NCBI GenBank assembly: GCA_013824585.1
Contig: PNOB01000003.1
Span: 1 to 36,759, forward strand
DNA: 36,759 nucleotides
Origin: Desulfobacterium sp.
Lineage (GTDB): Bacteria; Desulfobacterota; Desulfobacteria; Desulfobacterales; SURF-7
Reading direction: 5' to 3'
In this document: positions 7,509 to 15,193 of the stretch, in pieces
Position numbering within the stretch: position 1 is the stretch's first letter
Layout of the letters: every line of letters begins with the position of its first letter
Translations under genes and position numbers: made by a program
The notes under the pieces: generated by a model
Told to the model about the DNA's origin: nothing
Database searches by the model: none
Seen by the model: only the letters and a program-made list of their open reading frames with translations

Positions 7509-9323
7509 TCAGTTTCCCGGTGTATATTGGGTAATCACACCATCAAAGGTGCCTGTAATCGTTCCTGTGATTGAGGTTTCATCTTGGCATGCAGCGTCCT
7601 GACACTGATACCCCCCCAATACATCTACATCAAAACTGCCTGTCAAACGCTCTCCATACTGGGTGCCATAAGTTTGTATGGTAACGCTTCCGGAAGTTCC
7701 GGCCATATCCGATCCGAAAGTAACTGGTTGTCCATTTGGTTTATCAATAATATCTTTACTGCTAAAGAGGACGATTGGCGTGTCGCATTGGCCGAAGCCC
7801 AGGTTCCAAGTACCTGTTCCCATGTAATTGTTCAGCACCACGGTTAAAATATCGCTGGTTGTAAAATTCATTACATTTCCGCCGGAACTGGCATAGATGG
7901 TTGGGACCATGTATTTGTTGATGCTGTCATCACACTCTCCAAGCGCAATCACCTTGAAATTAGGAGAAAATTTACCATAACCGGGAATATTTACATTTGC
8001 ACTCAGGGTTATGCCGGCTGGGCTGTTGTCCTGACATGACGCATGCGTATCGCATTGACCGTCGTAACAATCGATGAGCATGTTACAATTGTTATCCATG
8101 CCGTCTGTGCAGATCTCTGGGGCATTGGGGTGAATGGCTGCATTTTGATCATTACAGTCGCCTTGGACTTCCGAAAACCCATCCTTATCATCGTCCGTCA
8201 GTGCCCGAACAGGAACAAGCTTTACAAGGGACTGAATCGGACTATTTCCGTTGGCATCCACACAAATCGAGGTCTTCCGCAGATGGCCGTCTTCCATCAG
8301 CAGGAAGGTCCAGTCTCCTTTCGGGACATTGTAAAATGAACCGTTCTGACTCGTACCGATATAGATATCATCCGGAGTCAGATCATTTGGATTGATGGCC
8401 TGGATCTGCCGAAAATCCGGATTATCCAGTTTCAGGGAACCATCCGTATCATCGCAGCGCCTGATACCGAAAGCTTTTTTGATGGAATCGACATCGTCAT
8501 AAGTGTCATATGCCTCAATCAGAAATTTTATGGTTTTCCATTCCTGGACACCGGCGGCCCAACTGGATATGTCGGTAACACCATTGGAAATCGTTGCCTT
8601 GATTGCCTCCCCGGCAGCTTTGGGCCACTTTTGGATAATACAGGCAAGCTTTTCCGCTCTCCATTTCATGCATTCGGAAAATCTCGCATCTGTTGCAGCC
8701 GGCATTGGATTGCATTCCGGCAAACCATCACATTCATGAATAGCATCGGCAGCTCCTTTTCCTGCGGCAGCGACTGCTCCGAAAACGGACAGCAGAACAA
8801 GGGCGCCCCCTATCAGGCCGATGGACTGGGAATCCCGGATGACGACCGATGTTTCATCATTTCCGGATTCCAGTGAATCTGCGATGATTTTTTCCTGATC
8901 TTTCAATGCTTCCACGGAAAGGCTGAATGTGTCGGCCGCCGATTGAACATCATTGGCAAGCTCTGTGAGTTGAGCAATGAGATTGGCAGCCTCCTCAGGG
9001 TGTTCGTCAATATAGTCCTCGATCGCTTTCTGATTCGGGGACACTGTTCCAAATGCATCTTCAATCAGCTCCCTGCCGGACTTGAGGTCATTTTCCATTT
9101 CCACTGCACCGGATATCGCAGATTCGGCCGATCTGTTCTGACTGTCCACGGCATTTGCTACTGTCGTATTCGTGCTGGATGGAGTATTGGTGTTGTCCGT
9201 GCTATTGTCTGAACTGCTGCAACTTGATAAAAAAGGAGTGATAATAAAAAAGAAGATTATATGATAAATGAATAATTCCCGGATGACTGCATTGTTCCAA
9301 AAACGTTTGACATTTTTGTGCAT
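7509..9323 (-). CDS. Large lipoprotein with MopE-type metal-binding motif, function unknown
   Basis: A 604-residue protein. The N-terminus is a signal peptide ending in a lipobox (FLSSC, Cys35), followed by a Ser/Thr/Asn-rich linker and a helical, probably coiled region (about 60-165). A glycine/alanine-rich hydrophobic stretch at about 167-190 could insert in a membrane. Residues about 378-425 carry the DDDKDGF...GDCND...EICTDGMDNNC motif of MopE-type putative metal-binding repeats. The C-terminal 150 residues look beta-rich with paired cysteines. It is probably an exported envelope or surface protein binding Ca or Cu; no catalytic motif is seen. AAAGGAGGTG before the ATG and a near-consensus promoter suggest good expression as a single gene. 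Confidence 0.82.
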   Translation of the reverse strand: MHKNVKRFWNNAVIRELFIYHIIFFFIITPFLSSCSSSDNSTDNTNTPSSTNTTVANAVDSQNRSAESAISGAVEMENDLKSGRELIEDAFGTVSPNQKAIEDYIDEHPEEAANLIAQLTELANDVQSAADTFSLSVEALKDQEKIIADSLESGNDETSVVIRDSQSIGLIGGALVLLSVFGAVAAAGKGAADAIHECDGLPECNPMPAATDARFSECMKWRAEKLACIIQKWPKAAGEAIKATISNGVTDISSWAAGVQEWKTIKFLIEAYDTYDDVDSIKKAFGIRRCDDTDGSLKLDNPDFRQIQAINPNDLTPDDIYIGTSQNGSFYNVPKGDWTFLLMEDGHLRKTSICVDANGNSPIQSLVKLVPVRALTDDDKDGFSEVQGDCNDQNAAIHPNAPEICTDGMDNNCNMLIDCYDGQCDTHASCQDNSPAGITLSANVNIPGYGKFSPNFKVIALGECDDSINKYMVPTIYASSGGNVMNFTTSDILTVVLNNYMGTGTWNLGFGQCDTPIVLFSSKDIIDKPNGQPVTFGSDMAGTSGSVTIQTYGTQYGERLTGSFDVDVLGGYQCQDAACQDETSITGTITGTFDGVITQYTPGN

Positions 9324-9466: not shown

Positions 9467-9489
9467 TTTTAATGATACTATCATTAAAA
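9467..9489. promoter_or_regulatory. Perfect 10-bp inverted repeat upstream of the DUF4143 ATPase
   Basis: TTTTAATGAT and ATCATTAAAA are separated by three bases, ending nine bases before ATG 9499. The position suits an operator or a hairpin covering the ribosome binding site. It also supports starting the ATPase at 9499 and not at ATG 9472, which lies inside the repeat. Confidence 0.6.
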
Positions 9490-9498
9490 TTCGATATT

Positions 9499-10752
9499 AT
9501 GTATCATCAAAGAATCCTCACCAACAGACTCGAAAGGCTTTTTTCGGTTTTTCCCCTGGTTGTCGTCAGCGGTGCCCGGCAGGTTGGCAAGAGCACACTG
9601 CTGGCCAATACTCTTGGCAGGGAAATGGACATGGTTGTCTTTGATCCGGTTATCGATATCGAAAATGCCCGACAGGATCCCGAGCTTTTTCTGAACAATC
9701 GTCCTCCTCCAGTCATTCTCGATGAAATCCAGTATTCTCCGGAGCTGGTGGCTGCCATAAAACGGAGGGTTGACCGGGAGTGCAAGCCTGGGCAATATGT
9801 CCTCACCGGATCTCAACAGTGGGGGGTGTTGCGGTCCATCTCGGAAAGTCTTGCGGGCAGGGCCGTTTTTCTTGATCTTGATGGTTTTACACTTTCGGAA
9901 ACAGTGAATCAGAGTGGTCACGAACCATGGCTTGAACAGTGGCTGACTGATCCCCTTGCCCTGGTCAAATCAAAATCAGGCCGCCTGCCGATAAAAAGAA
10001 CCCTTTATGAACAGCTTTGGCGAGGCTTCCTTCCGGATGCACAATTTATCCCCCTGGACACGATCCCTGCTTTTTATCAGGCTTATCAACGGACGTATAT
10101 TGAACGGGATGTTCGTCTGCTGGCAGATGTATCAGACTGGCAGTTGTTTGGCCGTTTTTTGCGATTAACAGCAGCCCTCACAGCTCAGGAGATCAATCAC
10201 AGCGAGATAGGCAGGGAGCTGGGAATTACCCCGCAAACAGCAGGACGCTGGCTTGATATTTTAAAAGCAACATTTCAGTGGTTTGAACTTCCGGCTTTTT
10301 CCGGAAATGCGGTAAAAAAAGTCAGCGGCAAACCCAAAGGATATATTTCCGATACTGGCCTTGCCTGCGCTGCACAGGCAATTTCATCGCCTACTGCTAT
10401 CGGCGGACACCCATTATGGGGCGCATTATTCGAGACCGCTTCCGTAGCGGAAATTAAAAAACAGTGCTCTTTTTTGTCGCCGTCCCCCAGGATGTATCAC
10501 TGGCGAGCCTATGGCGGTGCTGAAGTGGATATTTTACTGGAATATAACGGCAAATTCTACCCAATCGAAATCAAGGCCAAGACCAATCCAAGCCGCCGGG
10601 ATACCTCCGGGATTTCTGCTTTTCGGGCCGGATATCCAAATCTTTCCATTGAAAAAGGACTGATTCTGGCGCCGGTGGAAAGGGTATTGCAGATTTCAGA
10701 GAATGATTTTTCCTTACCATGGGATATCATGACGGAAACAGCAGAAGTTTGA
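9499..10752 (+). CDS. AAA ATPase with DUF4143 domain
   Basis: About 417 residues. An N-terminal P-loop (SGARQVGKST) and Walker B (VILDEIQY) form the AAA_14-type ATPase. A central helix-turn-helix-like segment (EIGRELGITPQTAGRWLDIL) and a C-terminal DUF4143 follow, the latter with a nuclease-fold-like signature AEVDILLE...PIEIKA (D-x(n)-E-x-K). Such ATPases are common, often duplicated and mobile among anaerobes; their role is not established, with defence or toxin-like functions suggested. The gene stands alone on the plus strand between minus-strand blocks, as expected of an insertion. ATG 9472 would add nine residues; 9499 fits the family start better. Confidence 0.88.
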   Translation: MYHQRILTNRLERLFSVFPLVVVSGARQVGKSTLLANTLGREMDMVVFDPVIDIENARQDPELFLNNRPPPVILDEIQYSPELVAAIKRRVDRECKPGQYVLTGSQQWGVLRSISESLAGRAVFLDLDGFTLSETVNQSGHEPWLEQWLTDPLALVKSKSGRLPIKRTLYEQLWRGFLPDAQFIPLDTIPAFYQAYQRTYIERDVRLLADVSDWQLFGRFLRLTAALTAQEINHSEIGRELGITPQTAGRWLDILKATFQWFELPAFSGNAVKKVSGKPKGYISDTGLACAAQAISSPTAIGGHPLWGALFETASVAEIKKQCSFLSPSPRMYHWRAYGGAEVDILLEYNGKFYPIEIKAKTNPSRRDTSGISAFRAGYPNLSIEKGLILAPVERVLQISENDFSLPWDIMTETAEV

Positions 10753-10866: not shown

Positions 10867-11883
10867 CTATTCAACCAATATCGGATTTTGAACCAGCCAT
10901 TCTTTCAGGCGTTTGAATCCTTCTTCGGTGGAAATTTGAGGTGAATATCCCAGATCTTTCTTGGCAGCGCTGATATCAAACCAGTGAGATGTTCCCAGTT
11001 CGTTTGCCACGAATCGGGTCATTTTCGGCTCTCCGGGAATCCGGAAAACAGTGTATACAAACTCAAGGATTGCTCCAATGGTCCAAACCACCTTGACCGG
11101 GAGGGTTTTGGTAATCGGTGGCAAATCGGCGGCATTCAGGATTCCATTGATCATGTCCCACATGGGGATTGGTTTGTCCTGACTGATAAAATAGACCTTC
11201 CCGGAAAGCGACGGGTTTTCTTCCAGCTTTTTTGCAGCCAGAATATGGGCATCAGCGGCATTGTCAATATAGATGGTGTCCACCAGGTTGTTCCGGTTTC
11301 CCACACGGACCAGTTTTCTGGAACGCTGAATGACCCGCGGGACAAGATGTGGATCACCTGGTCCCCATATCAGGTGGGGACGAAGGATGATTGTATTCAA
11401 TCCCTGTTTTGCAGCTTCACGAACCTCTTTTTCCGCAATGGTTTTGGTTCGGGTATAATGGGTATGGGATTCTTCCGGATAGGGGAGGGATTCATTTACT
11501 CCTTCCATATCTTCACCAGTGAAGATAACACTGGGTGAACTGGTATAGATCAAATTTTTGATATTATTCTTTTTACAGGCATGGATTACGTTTCGGGTAC
11601 CCAGAACATTGGGTTTGAAATATTCATCATAGGTTCCCCAAACCCCTGGTTTTGCGGCAACATGATAAACAATATCCATTCCGGATAATGCATTTTCAAC
11701 TGCGTTTTTGTCGGAAAGATCCCCCTGAATCTGCTGAACACCCAAGGCATCAAGATCAGGATAGGAATGGCGGGAAAAATTCCATACCTGTTGACCTTGT
11801 TCAACCAGTTTCCGGATAATGGCTTTGCCTAAAAAGCCGCCTCCGCCGGTTACCAGCACTTTTTTTGGATACATGCTGTCCAT
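10867..11883 (-). CDS. oleD: NAD(P)-dependent 2-alkyl-3-oxoalkanoate reductase, OleD-like
   Basis: A 338-residue short-chain dehydrogenase/epimerase of the 3-beta-HSD type. It has the nucleotide-binding TGGGGFLG (12-19), YTSSPSV, the catalytic Y143-xxx-K147, and LRPHLIWGPGDPHLVPR, a stretch highly typical of OleD. In olefin biosynthesis OleD reduces the OleA product, a 2-alkyl-3-ketoacid, to the beta-hydroxy acid. TTAGGAG six bases before the ATG fixes the start. It is last in the order oleB - coiled coil - oleC - oleD, 133 bases after oleC. Homologous sterol dehydrogenases look similar, but the neighbours settle the call. Confidence 0.87.
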   Translation of the reverse strand: MDSMYPKKVLVTGGGGFLGKAIIRKLVEQGQQVWNFSRHSYPDLDALGVQQIQGDLSDKNAVENALSGMDIVYHVAAKPGVWGTYDEYFKPNVLGTRNVIHACKKNNIKNLIYTSSPSVIFTGEDMEGVNESLPYPEESHTHYTRTKTIAEKEVREAAKQGLNTIILRPHLIWGPGDPHLVPRVIQRSRKLVRVGNRNNLVDTIYIDNAADAHILAAKKLEENPSLSGKVYFISQDKPIPMWDMINGILNAADLPPITKTLPVKVVWTIGAILEFVYTVFRIPGEPKMTRFVANELGTSHWFDISAAKKDLGYSPQISTEEGFKRLKEWLVQNPILVE

Positions 11884-11900: not shown

Positions 11901-11937
11901 AATTGATAATTAGTCATTAACAATTGTTAATTGATAA
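11901..11937. repeat. Palindrome flanked by direct repeats in the oleC-oleD gap
   Basis: TTAACAATTGTTAA (11917-11930) is a perfect 14-bp palindrome. AATTGATAA occurs once on each side, at 11901-11909 and again at 11929-11937. The sequence lies just upstream of the oleD ribosome site and could be an operator, a processing site, or a small intergenic repeat. Confidence 0.5.
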
Positions 11938-12016: not shown

Positions 12017-13675
12017 TTATTTCAATTGCTCTTCCGCCCAGATGGCCAGTTCTTCCCGGATAATTTTTGTATGATGCAGGTCATCCACTGGAAGTACATT
12101 GTGAAACAGGATTGTTTTAATGTTCTGAGTGATTACATTTTTTTCTGCCAAAGCCAGAAGCTCCATTTCAATACGGTTTTGTTCAAGATTGTGGCTCTCT
12201 TCCAGTTCGACGCAAATCACCGGTGTTTTGTTTTCCTCTGACCCGATACCGACAAGTGCGCTTCGATAAACATCCGGGTGGGTATTGAAGATCGCTTCAC
12301 AGGGAATCGAATAAAATGTTCCCTGTTCTGTAATGACTCGATGGCTCTTCCTGCCGCAGAACCAGTAACGATTGTTCTTGTCCATCCATCCAAGGTCACC
12401 CATCCGGTGCCATGTTTCACTGTTTTCCTTTATTTTTTGCAGGGTGTCATGTTCACTGTTTTCCAGATAATTTCTGGATACAAGATCGCCCTTGACAATA
12501 AATTCACCAATCTCGCCATGTGGAAGCAGCAGATCATCGGAGAAAATGGATACAGGGGAATCTGTGATCTGAATCAGACGGACGTCAATCTCTTTGATCG
12601 GACGGCCAATACAGTTTCCATATCCTTTTTCACTCAAGCCTTTTGTCTCGGAAAGGATTTCGTTGCTGCCAATGGACAGGATCGGCATGGCTTCTGTCGA
12701 ACCATAGGAAGTATGAACTTCAGCGGTTCCGGATAACATTTTAGCAAATCGCTCAACGCGTGAAGGCTGAAACGGCGCACCAACGGAAATAACTCTTTTC
12801 AGGGAAGAAAGCATAATCCTGTTATTTTGCCCATATCGCCCCACCAGGTCTAACAGGGCAGGGGAGGTGATCATGTTGGTAACACCCTGGTCAAAGATCG
12901 TCTCAATGATGTTCTGCGGGTTCACAAGGGCCAGGTGTGCAGGATCCATATCCGGAATAACCGAAGTCATGCCAAGAGCCGGGCCAAAAAGAGCAAATGA
13001 AGAAAGTGTCGCGAGATCGATTTCATCGGATGAAATATCAAACTGGTCTTTGATTTGCCGGAATTGGGCAGTCAGATTGCCATGGGTATATACCACCGCC
13101 TTGGCTGGTCCGGTGTTCCCGGGGGTGAACAGAATTGCGGCAGTATCATCTGCCTGTGTATCGGCAATAGCAGGTGTGATCCACGGAACTTTTCGAATGT
13201 CTTCCATAGTCATCCCGCCCCAGAACAGACGCTGGCCAGTCGTGATAAAGGTTTTCACACTTTTAAAAAGATCCGGGCGTAATATTTTGAGGATCCGGGT
13301 CCAGGGAACTCCGATAAAGGCTTCGGGCCTTGTTTCCTTCACGCAGCGAAGCAGAGGGGTGATTCCCATGCCAGGATCAACCAGAACCGGAATCGCACCG
13401 ATCTTCAAGAGGGCAAAGGCAAGTGAGAAAAAATCAAGGCATGGCTTTATCATGAGAATGGTTTTTGTATTGCGAACAACACCTGCTTTTTCAAGGCCGG
13501 CAGCCATACAGTCCGATTCCTGTTCCAGTTGACGAAAAGTGAAATGGGAATAAGTCAGACGACCATTTTGATTCCTGGATTCAGGATATACAACAGCTCG
13601 TTTATACGGGTCTTTTTTTGCCGTCTCCGTCACACCGGAGGAGACATTGACAATTGTTTCGTTTGATAGGGTCAC
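12017..13675 (-). CDS. oleC: AMP-dependent beta-lactone synthetase, OleC-like
   Basis: A 552-residue adenylate-forming enzyme. The fold motifs are present: YGSTEAMPI (A5), GDLGWMDKNNRYWFCGRKSHRV (A7-A8) and PCEAIFNTHPDVYRSALVG, the last two being typical of OleC. In known systems OleC uses ATP to close a syn/anti beta-hydroxy acid into a beta-lactone. The phosphate-binding loop at 184-193 reads TPGNTGPAKA where the family has TSGSTGxxKG, so several small residues are replaced while the lysine remains. The start is GTG 13675, overlapping the stop of the upstream coiled-coil gene as GTGA, so the two are probably translationally coupled. A plain long-chain acyl ligase is less likely given OleB and OleD on either side. 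Confidence 0.85.
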   Translation of the reverse strand: MTLSNETIVNVSSGVTETAKKDPYKRAVVYPESRNQNGRLTYSHFTFRQLEQESDCMAAGLEKAGVVRNTKTILMIKPCLDFFSLAFALLKIGAIPVLVDPGMGITPLLRCVKETRPEAFIGVPWTRILKILRPDLFKSVKTFITTGQRLFWGGMTMEDIRKVPWITPAIADTQADDTAAILFTPGNTGPAKAVVYTHGNLTAQFRQIKDQFDISSDEIDLATLSSFALFGPALGMTSVIPDMDPAHLALVNPQNIIETIFDQGVTNMITSPALLDLVGRYGQNNRIMLSSLKRVISVGAPFQPSRVERFAKMLSGTAEVHTSYGSTEAMPILSIGSNEILSETKGLSEKGYGNCIGRPIKEIDVRLIQITDSPVSIFSDDLLLPHGEIGEFIVKGDLVSRNYLENSEHDTLQKIKENSETWHRMGDLGWMDKNNRYWFCGRKSHRVITEQGTFYSIPCEAIFNTHPDVYRSALVGIGSEENKTPVICVELEESHNLEQNRIEMELLALAEKNVITQNIKTILFHNVLPVDDLHHTKIIREELAIWAEEQLK

Positions 13676-14232
13676 TTTGAAATTTTTTCTTTTATTTTTT
13701 GGATAAAACTTTTTTCTTCGGTATTTTTCAGTCGAACAGTCTGTTTTTTTGATGTTTCAAGGGCTTCGGTTGCTGAAGCCAGCAACTCTTCCTTTTTGGA
13801 TGCCAGAAGTTCCGTTCCTTTTTCCGTGTTAACCGTGTACGCGACAAACAGGGGTTCGATGTTTTTTTCCAGATTTTCAATTAGTGTCTGAAGATCTTTT
13901 TGGGTTTTACTCCACATTTTTTTTTCATCCTGAACAATTTTTTTCTGTTTCGGATACTCATTTTCTATTATTTCAAGACGCTTCAATTCCTTTTCAATCA
14001 TAACAATTTCGTGGTTGAGTTCGAAAAGAGAGTTATAAACATCGGGCATGGATTGATGGACAAAGGCGATGGTTTCCTCCTGGAGATGGATATTTGCCAT
14101 TTCATTGTCAGAAGTCTTTTCTGCATTCAAAAATTTATAGGCAAAAAATCCTCCTGCTGCAACAGCTATTGTAATCATCAACAGCAGAATGAAAAGCAGT
14201 TTTCCTGAGTTATTGTATTTATTTTTCATCAT
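13672..14232 (-). CDS. Membrane-anchored coiled-coil protein of unknown function within the ole cluster
   Basis: I do not recognise this family. The 186-residue product has a short basic N-terminus, one hydrophobic helix (about 12-34; LLFILLLMITIAVAAGGFF) and then a long, charged helical region with heptad-like spacing (LNHEIVMIEKELKRLEIIE) and a lysine-rich tail. It is probably anchored in the inner membrane by its N-terminus. It lies 49 bases after oleB and overlaps oleC by four bases (GTGA), so it is co-transcribed and probably coupled to oleC. No good ribosome site is seen before its ATG. A scaffold or membrane tether for the OleBCD enzymes is a reasonable but untested idea. Confidence 0.75.
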   Translation of the reverse strand: MMKNKYNNSGKLLFILLLMITIAVAAGGFFAYKFLNAEKTSDNEMANIHLQEETIAFVHQSMPDVYNSLFELNHEIVMIEKELKRLEIIENEYPKQKKIVQDEKKMWSKTQKDLQTLIENLEKNIEPLFVAYTVNTEKGTELLASKKEELLASATEALETSKKQTVRLKNTEEKSFIQKIKEKISK

Positions 14233-14281: not shown

Positions 14282-15193
14282 TTATATTGGATGAGATTTT
14301 AAGAAATTTTGAACAATCGGCAGAATTTTATCCGGTACATCCTCCAGCAGATAGTGTCCGGCATCTGAAAAAAGATGGTATTCTGCATCTGGAAATCTTC
14401 GCCTCCATTCTTCAAAAAATGCGATTGTAAAAACAAAATCGTGTTTCCCCCAGCAGATCAGCTTGGGGATGTCCGAAAGCCTGTGAAGATTCTGATCCAC
14501 ATATTGCCCTAAATTATAACTGGGATCGCCTGGCTTTACAGGAATATCCTGAACAAACTTCAATGTTGCGATCCGGTTTTCCCATGAGTTGTAAGGGGCA
14601 ATCAGACCAGCTTTGACATCTTTTGTCAGACGTTTGTATGGAGCCATATACAGGGCAGCCCTTGAGAACAGATTAAACCCCTTTACCCCGATCGTGGCAA
14701 ACGGGGCGATATGGCGTATCAACCAGAGACGCAGCGGAAGCCCTTTTCCGCCAGGGGTAAAAAAACCGGCAGTGTTGGTAATCACGATTCGTTTAACTTT
14801 TGTAAGATTCCTCAATGCAAAGGCAAGGCCGATCATCCCGCCCCAGTCGTGAAGAACCAGTGTGATGCGGCTTTTTATATCAACATGATCCAGCAATGCC
14901 TCCAGATCCTCGACCCGGCTTTGGTATCGGTAATCATACTGGTTCTCAGATGGCTTGTCCGAAAGACCGCAACCAATGTGATCCGGCACAATGGTTCGAT
15001 AGCCGGAAGACAATCCTTTCACAAGGCTTCGATAATAAAATGACCAGGTAGGGTTTCCATGCAGCATGACCACAGGATCACCGGAACCTTCATCAAGGTA
15101 ATGCATCTGCATACCGTTTCTGTTCATAAAATGGGATTGAAACGGGTAGAGGTGCTGAAAAGGCGTAATATCAATTGGTTTACTGTTTTTCAT
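14282..15193 (-). CDS. oleB: Alpha/beta hydrolase, OleB-like beta-lactone decarboxylase
   Basis: The 303-residue protein is of the haloalkane-dehalogenase-like alpha/beta hydrolase group. It shows HGNPTW (45-50) for the oxyanion hole, an aspartate nucleophile in VLHDWGGM (Asp116), an acidic residue in GKHDFVF and the catalytic histidine in DAGHYLLED. OleB in olefin biosynthesis removes CO2 from a beta-lactone to yield a cis-olefin; dehalogenases share the residues, so sequence alone does not separate them. The adjacent oleC and oleD make OleB the better call. It starts the cluster, 136 bases after the topA stop, where OleA would be expected but is not found. Confidence 0.85.
   Translation of the reverse strand: MKNSKPIDITPFQHLYPFQSHFMNRNGMQMHYLDEGSGDPVVMLHGNPTWSFYYRSLVKGLSSGYRTIVPDHIGCGLSDKPSENQYDYRYQSRVEDLEALLDHVDIKSRITLVLHDWGGMIGLAFALRNLTKVKRIVITNTAGFFTPGGKGLPLRLWLIRHIAPFATIGVKGFNLFSRAALYMAPYKRLTKDVKAGLIAPYNSWENRIATLKFVQDIPVKPGDPSYNLGQYVDQNLHRLSDIPKLICWGKHDFVFTIAFFEEWRRRFPDAEYHLFSDAGHYLLEDVPDKILPIVQNFLKSHPI

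Follow-up and report, generated by a model that had tools for sequence, protein, structure and literature searches.

The window analysed here, a stretch of 36,759 nt, carries on its minus strand the genes oleB, U, oleC and oleD in that order (Table 1). Pfam and NCBIfam assign OleB to the alpha/beta hydrolases of haloalkane-dehalogenase type. OleC exceeded the NF006754 cut-off and was strongly matched by the two models for olefin beta-lactone synthetase, yet under their strict cut-offs; for OleD the two OleD models (NF042423, NF042422) were the best matches, under their strict equivalog cut-offs. OleB, OleC and OleD are thus encoded together in the window, as in an ole olefin cluster. No oleA was found in this cluster within the 36,759-nt window. 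A lone OleA-family thiolase is encoded on contig C47 of the same genome (locus L259, 5784-6815; NF006720, 431 bits against a cut-off of 285); it has 38-39% identity to the cluster oleA of related families and no adjoining ole or pfa gene. The 133-bp gap between oleC and oleD holds a perfect 16-bp palindrome, ATTAACAATTGTTAAT (window 11916-11931), about 33 nt before the oleD start, with one match in the window at up to two mismatches where 0.05 was expected; it is possibly a candidate operator for oleD. The ole cluster is adjoined by a plus-strand AAA_14/DUF4143 ATPase (window 9472-10752). A 604-aa protein encoded on the minus strand at window 7509-9323 begins with a lipobox-like sequence and contains a metal-binding motif of the MopE type (PF11617).

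Table 1. Features of the ole operon and of gene U in the window.
Feature	Position	Strand	Evidence
oleD	10867..11883	-	NF042423 E 1e-130, NF042422 E 3e-121
oleC	12017..13675	-	NF006754 643 bits vs cut-off 478; OleC models E 2e-162 and 2e-156
GTGA overlap of U stop and oleC start	13672..13675	-	sequence; similar 4-nt overlaps at 31/46 loci
gene U, 186-aa membrane-anchored helical-bundle protein	13672..14232	-	ORF and translation, homologues and context, dN/dS
basic-hydrophobic C-terminal tail of U, residues 171-186	13675..13722	-	motif counts in linked/unlinked members
four-helix bundle of U, residues 51-170, conserved part, predicted periplasmic	13723..14082	-	AlphaFold; conserved residues
membrane helix of U, residues ~11-33	14134..14202	-	single hydrophobic peak, family positive-inside charges; helix 9-39 in model
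oleB	14282..15193	-	Pfam and NCBIfam, synteny

The U reading frame begins with ATG at 14232, 49 bp beyond the 3' end of oleB, and ends with TGA at 13674-13672; the GTG start of oleC occupies 13675-13673, and the bases common to the two genes read GTGA. The first-pass annotation had described a 186-residue frame between oleB and oleC with this overlap and with one N-terminal membrane helix. The sequence bears out both descriptions and adds the strand, which is minus; there is a single hydrophobic segment and no second one. Comparison with two sister species gave a dN of 0.06, a dS of 0.39-0.54 and a dN/dS of 0.11-0.16, which indicates purifying selection. Because homologues occur at the same place in 12 families and the dN/dS is this low, U is more than a chance reading frame, and we regard it as confirmed to be a genuine gene.

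To trace the family we used a homologue profile made from alignment A1 (13 members) with a threshold of at least 50 bits on 390 genomes of the order Desulfobacterales, the genome samples being drawn by relatedness. A first search had covered 59 relatives and found U in 19, the weakest matches being spurious; loci L035-L037 from that search were rejected as U homologues, since the proteins encoded there are different ones, such as the YchF-like GTPase of L036. Carriers of U probably include Desulfospira joergensenii DSM 10085 and Desulfamplus magnetovallimortis. At 47 of the 75 U loci that were fetched, U immediately preceded oleC, both genes reading in the same direction (46 complete, and L020 cut by the contig end after oleC had begun), and at four others oleC lay 3.2-7 kb downstream. 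The 47 linked loci span 12 family codes (f1, f10, f14, f18, f27, f35, f42, f47, f48, f52, f55 and f63, where f35 is Desulfobacteraceae), and the repetition of this exact position in 12 families is the most robust evidence of linkage. The usual gene order in relatives was (PfaA-like synthase)-oleA-oleB-U-oleC, with oleD behind oleC in several families, not in Desulfobacteraceae. Over the 47 linked loci, U distances tracked those of OleB (r 0.94) and OleC (r 0.88), values uncorrected for shared ancestry. The occurrence of homologues in the ole clusters of other genomes had been named beforehand as the check on U, and the opposite outcome, homologues mostly away from ole genes, as what would speak against it; the latter did not come true. 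The presence of homologues in ole clusters, together with the recurrence of a 4-nt stop/start overlap at 31 of 46 U-oleC junctions, therefore supports the coupling of U to oleC that had been proposed. Gene order and overlap strongly indicate co-expression, and translation of U is probably coupled to that of OleC. At four Desulfobacteraceae loci (L076, L078, L101 and L160), two opposite-strand genes, one GTPase-like and its neighbour, separated U from oleC or, in clusters lacking U, adjoined oleC.

In 395 genomes of the phylum, true matches to the bundle were found only in G393, in two tandem copies, plus a weak one in G031, which belongs to the order itself; the remaining matches were rejected as U since they covered only the tail and membrane helix. 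The tandem pair of U-like proteins in G393 (L262, 166-2128), of which one begins like a lipoprotein, has as its neighbour a third protein that is small, helical and lipoprotein-like.

Within the order, OleC was present in 263 of the 390 genomes (E 1e-90 or better) and U in 91, of which 79 also had OleC; the resulting table (79/12/184/115) gave a Fisher p of 3e-6, uncorrected for shared ancestry. At 70 of 166 OleC loci oleB was directly beside oleC with no U between them, and these clusters were otherwise like those with U; this held even inside the genus codes g124 and g130 (Desulfobacula and Desulfotignum type). A dedicated search of 19 Desulfobacteraceae genomes with OleC found no true U. 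Placed on the OleC tree, U presence required 12 changes, against about 37 in shuffles, and on this showing it is clade-wise but repeatedly lost or gained. U also occurred apart from the pathway: in genomes of f18 g101 it was present without OleC (five searched) and without OleA (three searched), and in family f30 a divergent U was kept away from the genome's own ole cluster. The copies unlinked to ole formed few clades (f30 with f44, f18 g101, and f35 g43), whereas linked copies were spread over many families, and no constant neighbour was seen at the unlinked loci. U is accordingly a conserved but optional part of the ole operon of many sulfate-reducing bacteria, and most ole clusters of the order do without it, in line with the earlier statement that canonical ole clusters have no such gene. 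In view of the U-less clusters and of the occurrence of U without OleC, claims that the pathway requires U, or that U works in it alone, can be made only within limits; U was not a constant companion of the pathway wherever the latter occurred.

The protein consists of a lysine-rich N-tail, one membrane helix, a linker, a bundle and a basic tail. The N-tail varies in length and sequence, from 10 aa in the window copy up to about 75 elsewhere. An AlphaFold model built on a 24-sequence alignment placed helices at residues 9-39, 52-61, 63-92, 94-134 and 136-185; pLDDT exceeded 90 over most of the bundle (residues 52-170). The Desulfobacter vibrioformis protein was modelled with the same bundle, its N-tail being disordered. 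In both models a compact four-helix bundle takes the place of the long charged coiled coil expected from the first reading. The conserved residues (F57, E82, R85, P94, Q96, V130 and G139) were located in the bundle and not in the N-tail; F57, P94, Q96 and V130 were invariant in 75 sequences, and E82 and R85 were identical in 74. A C-terminal tail motif was carried by 40 of the 47 members linked to ole, against 6 of the 23 that were not; in reading this comparison it should be kept in mind that the oleC start codon, which lies within the last U codons in many members, partly determines the motifs in the tail and at the 60-nt level. We rejected the tail as a clear amphipathic helix; its hydrophobic moment was just ~0.9 sd above shuffles and, because of this and of the oleC start within those codons, its amphipathicity stays a remark.

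No curated Pfam or NCBIfam family scored above its cut-off for the window protein and 24 members, nor was there a PDB sequence match. Weak Pfam/NCBIfam matches to AIF-MLS, FliL, MapZ and EnvC were rejected as homology, as they covered just the lysine-rich tail and membrane helix or a generic helix and differed among members. With bitopic N-in/C-out proteins of the FliL, MapZ and PknB type, which some members matched in NCBIfam, U has in common a lysine-rich N-tail followed by one membrane helix; however, the match ends after that helix, the bundle is unrelated and the scores are far below the curated cut-offs. Foldseek searches with the window and D. vibrioformis models found no significant solved structural relative and no hint of lipid binding. 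The best matches were Borrelia outer surface lipoproteins (e.g., 5izt and 2yn7), which share a helical bundle at a TM-score of ~0.4, but with an E of 0.14 at best and 12-14% identity these are not significant and are at chance level for a helical bundle.

The orientation of U in the membrane was judged from the charges flanking the helix. Over 98 entries, in which some organisms are counted twice via two collections, the mean number of K/R residues was 5.6 on the N side vs 2.4 on the C side, and N exceeded C in 84; this N-in/C-out pattern therefore predicts a periplasmic bundle. The window copy, with three on the N side and two on the C side, had a slight bias that is hardly decisive, and f30 members did not clearly follow the charge rule. 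At locus L070, where U is next to oleC, a signal peptide with the lipobox LSGC replaces the membrane anchor, which therefore puts that bundle outside the cytosol; the remote homologue in G393 has an N-terminus resembling that of L070, though less canonical. Taken together, these signs suggest that U is anchored in the inner membrane and that its bundle probably faces the periplasm.

OleB, OleC and OleD are cytosolic enzymes. The reading that we prefer, with a probability of roughly 0.4, is that U is an optional, inner-membrane-anchored periplasmic protein that is co-translated with OleC and acts on the product side of the olefin pathway. U, presumably made together with OleC, would be held in the inner membrane by its N-terminal helix, with the bundle on the periplasmic side, where it may contact hydrocarbon or envelope; at that face of the membrane it could help to place, hold or pass on the hydrophobic long-chain olefin released by OleB. 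The Ole pathway yields long-chain olefins, which come to lie in membranes (PMC7064751; membrane hydrocarbons also in PMC6463001), and the pfa-linked product is the polyunsaturated C31:9 (PMC6463001, PMC3098273). A co-translated, periplasm-facing U is easier to reconcile with where the product goes than with a part in assembling the enzymes, and it is from this fit that we infer a hydrocarbon-handling role. The slight charge bias of the window copy and the structure searches, which gave no pointer to lipid binding, count against a product-side role, and so do the presence of U without oleC in f18 g101, its place away from ole in f30 and its absence from most ole clusters. These last three facts, together with the patchy presence of U on the OleC tree, would be expected of an envelope protein with a general job, such as membrane or wall maintenance, whose gene has come to reside in the ole operon and is expressed along with it, the protein having no role in the olefin pathway. 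We consider this explanation somewhat unlikely: U recurs at the same position, often with the same overlap, in 12 families, its unlinked copies belong to few clades as opposed to the many families of the linked ones, and those unlinked copies have no constant alternative neighbour. A more specific form of the product-side reading, unlikely in our estimate, would give U the dedicated task of carrying or placing head-to-head olefins in the periplasm, so that they leave the inner membrane for the envelope and possibly reach the outer membrane; no periplasmic carrier or placement factor for the Ole pathway was described in the literature searched.

The first-pass annotation had favored a tether or scaffold for OleB, OleC and OleD, and U could attach these enzymes to the membrane, with the contact made by its N-tail in the cytosol or, in the reverse topology, by the bundle. 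Such a role would agree with the coupling to oleC, with the basic C-terminal tail, with the statement in PMC6463001, citing Christenson 2017, that OleB, OleC and OleD form one large complex, and with the fusion of oleB to oleC in some bacteria (PMC7064751), which makes the site between them functionally tight. It is disfavored, and we hold it to be quite improbable, as the charge bias and the lipoprotein form at L070, which has no cytosolic part, argue for a periplasmic bundle, and the N-tail that would remain in the cytosol is variable. Moreover, many clusters that are equal in other respects do not have U, which therefore is not a general part of an OleBCD assembly. That the U frame serves as a leader setting OleC translation, the protein itself being of little weight, might be read from the frequent 4-nt overlap; purifying selection on U, residues that are near-invariant across the order, also in copies unlinked to oleC, and a confident fold make this a very remote prospect.

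Compared with canonical oleABCD, often found beside pfa-type synthases (PMC3098273, PMC6463001, PMC7064751), the cluster likewise has OleB, OleC and OleD in one operon, and in relatives oleA and a PfaA-like synthase lie upstream of U clusters too. Unlike the canonical arrangement, U stands between oleB and oleC, the window cluster is without oleA, and oleD is not adjacent in Desulfobacteraceae. Ole clusters with 0 to 3 intermediate genes have been recorded, the U family not being among those named (PMC7064751). Neither the U family or this cluster variant nor, for these bacteria, any gene separating oleB from oleC was described in the literature searched, which left most subscription journals outside its scope and is therefore weak evidence of novelty. 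The operon belongs to a known type to which a new component, the unnamed accessory family U, has been added.

The Ole enzymes have been studied well. The physiological role of the Ole hydrocarbon has been called obscure (PMC6463001). A conserved, optional and probably periplasmic operon partner would offer a handle on the fate of the olefin in the envelope and on the route by which so hydrophobic a product gets there, and near relatives with and without U in otherwise equal clusters form natural pairs for comparison. With U comes a protein family that has a confidently predicted fold but neither name nor annotation and that is carried by nearly a quarter of the sampled genomes of one order (91/390).
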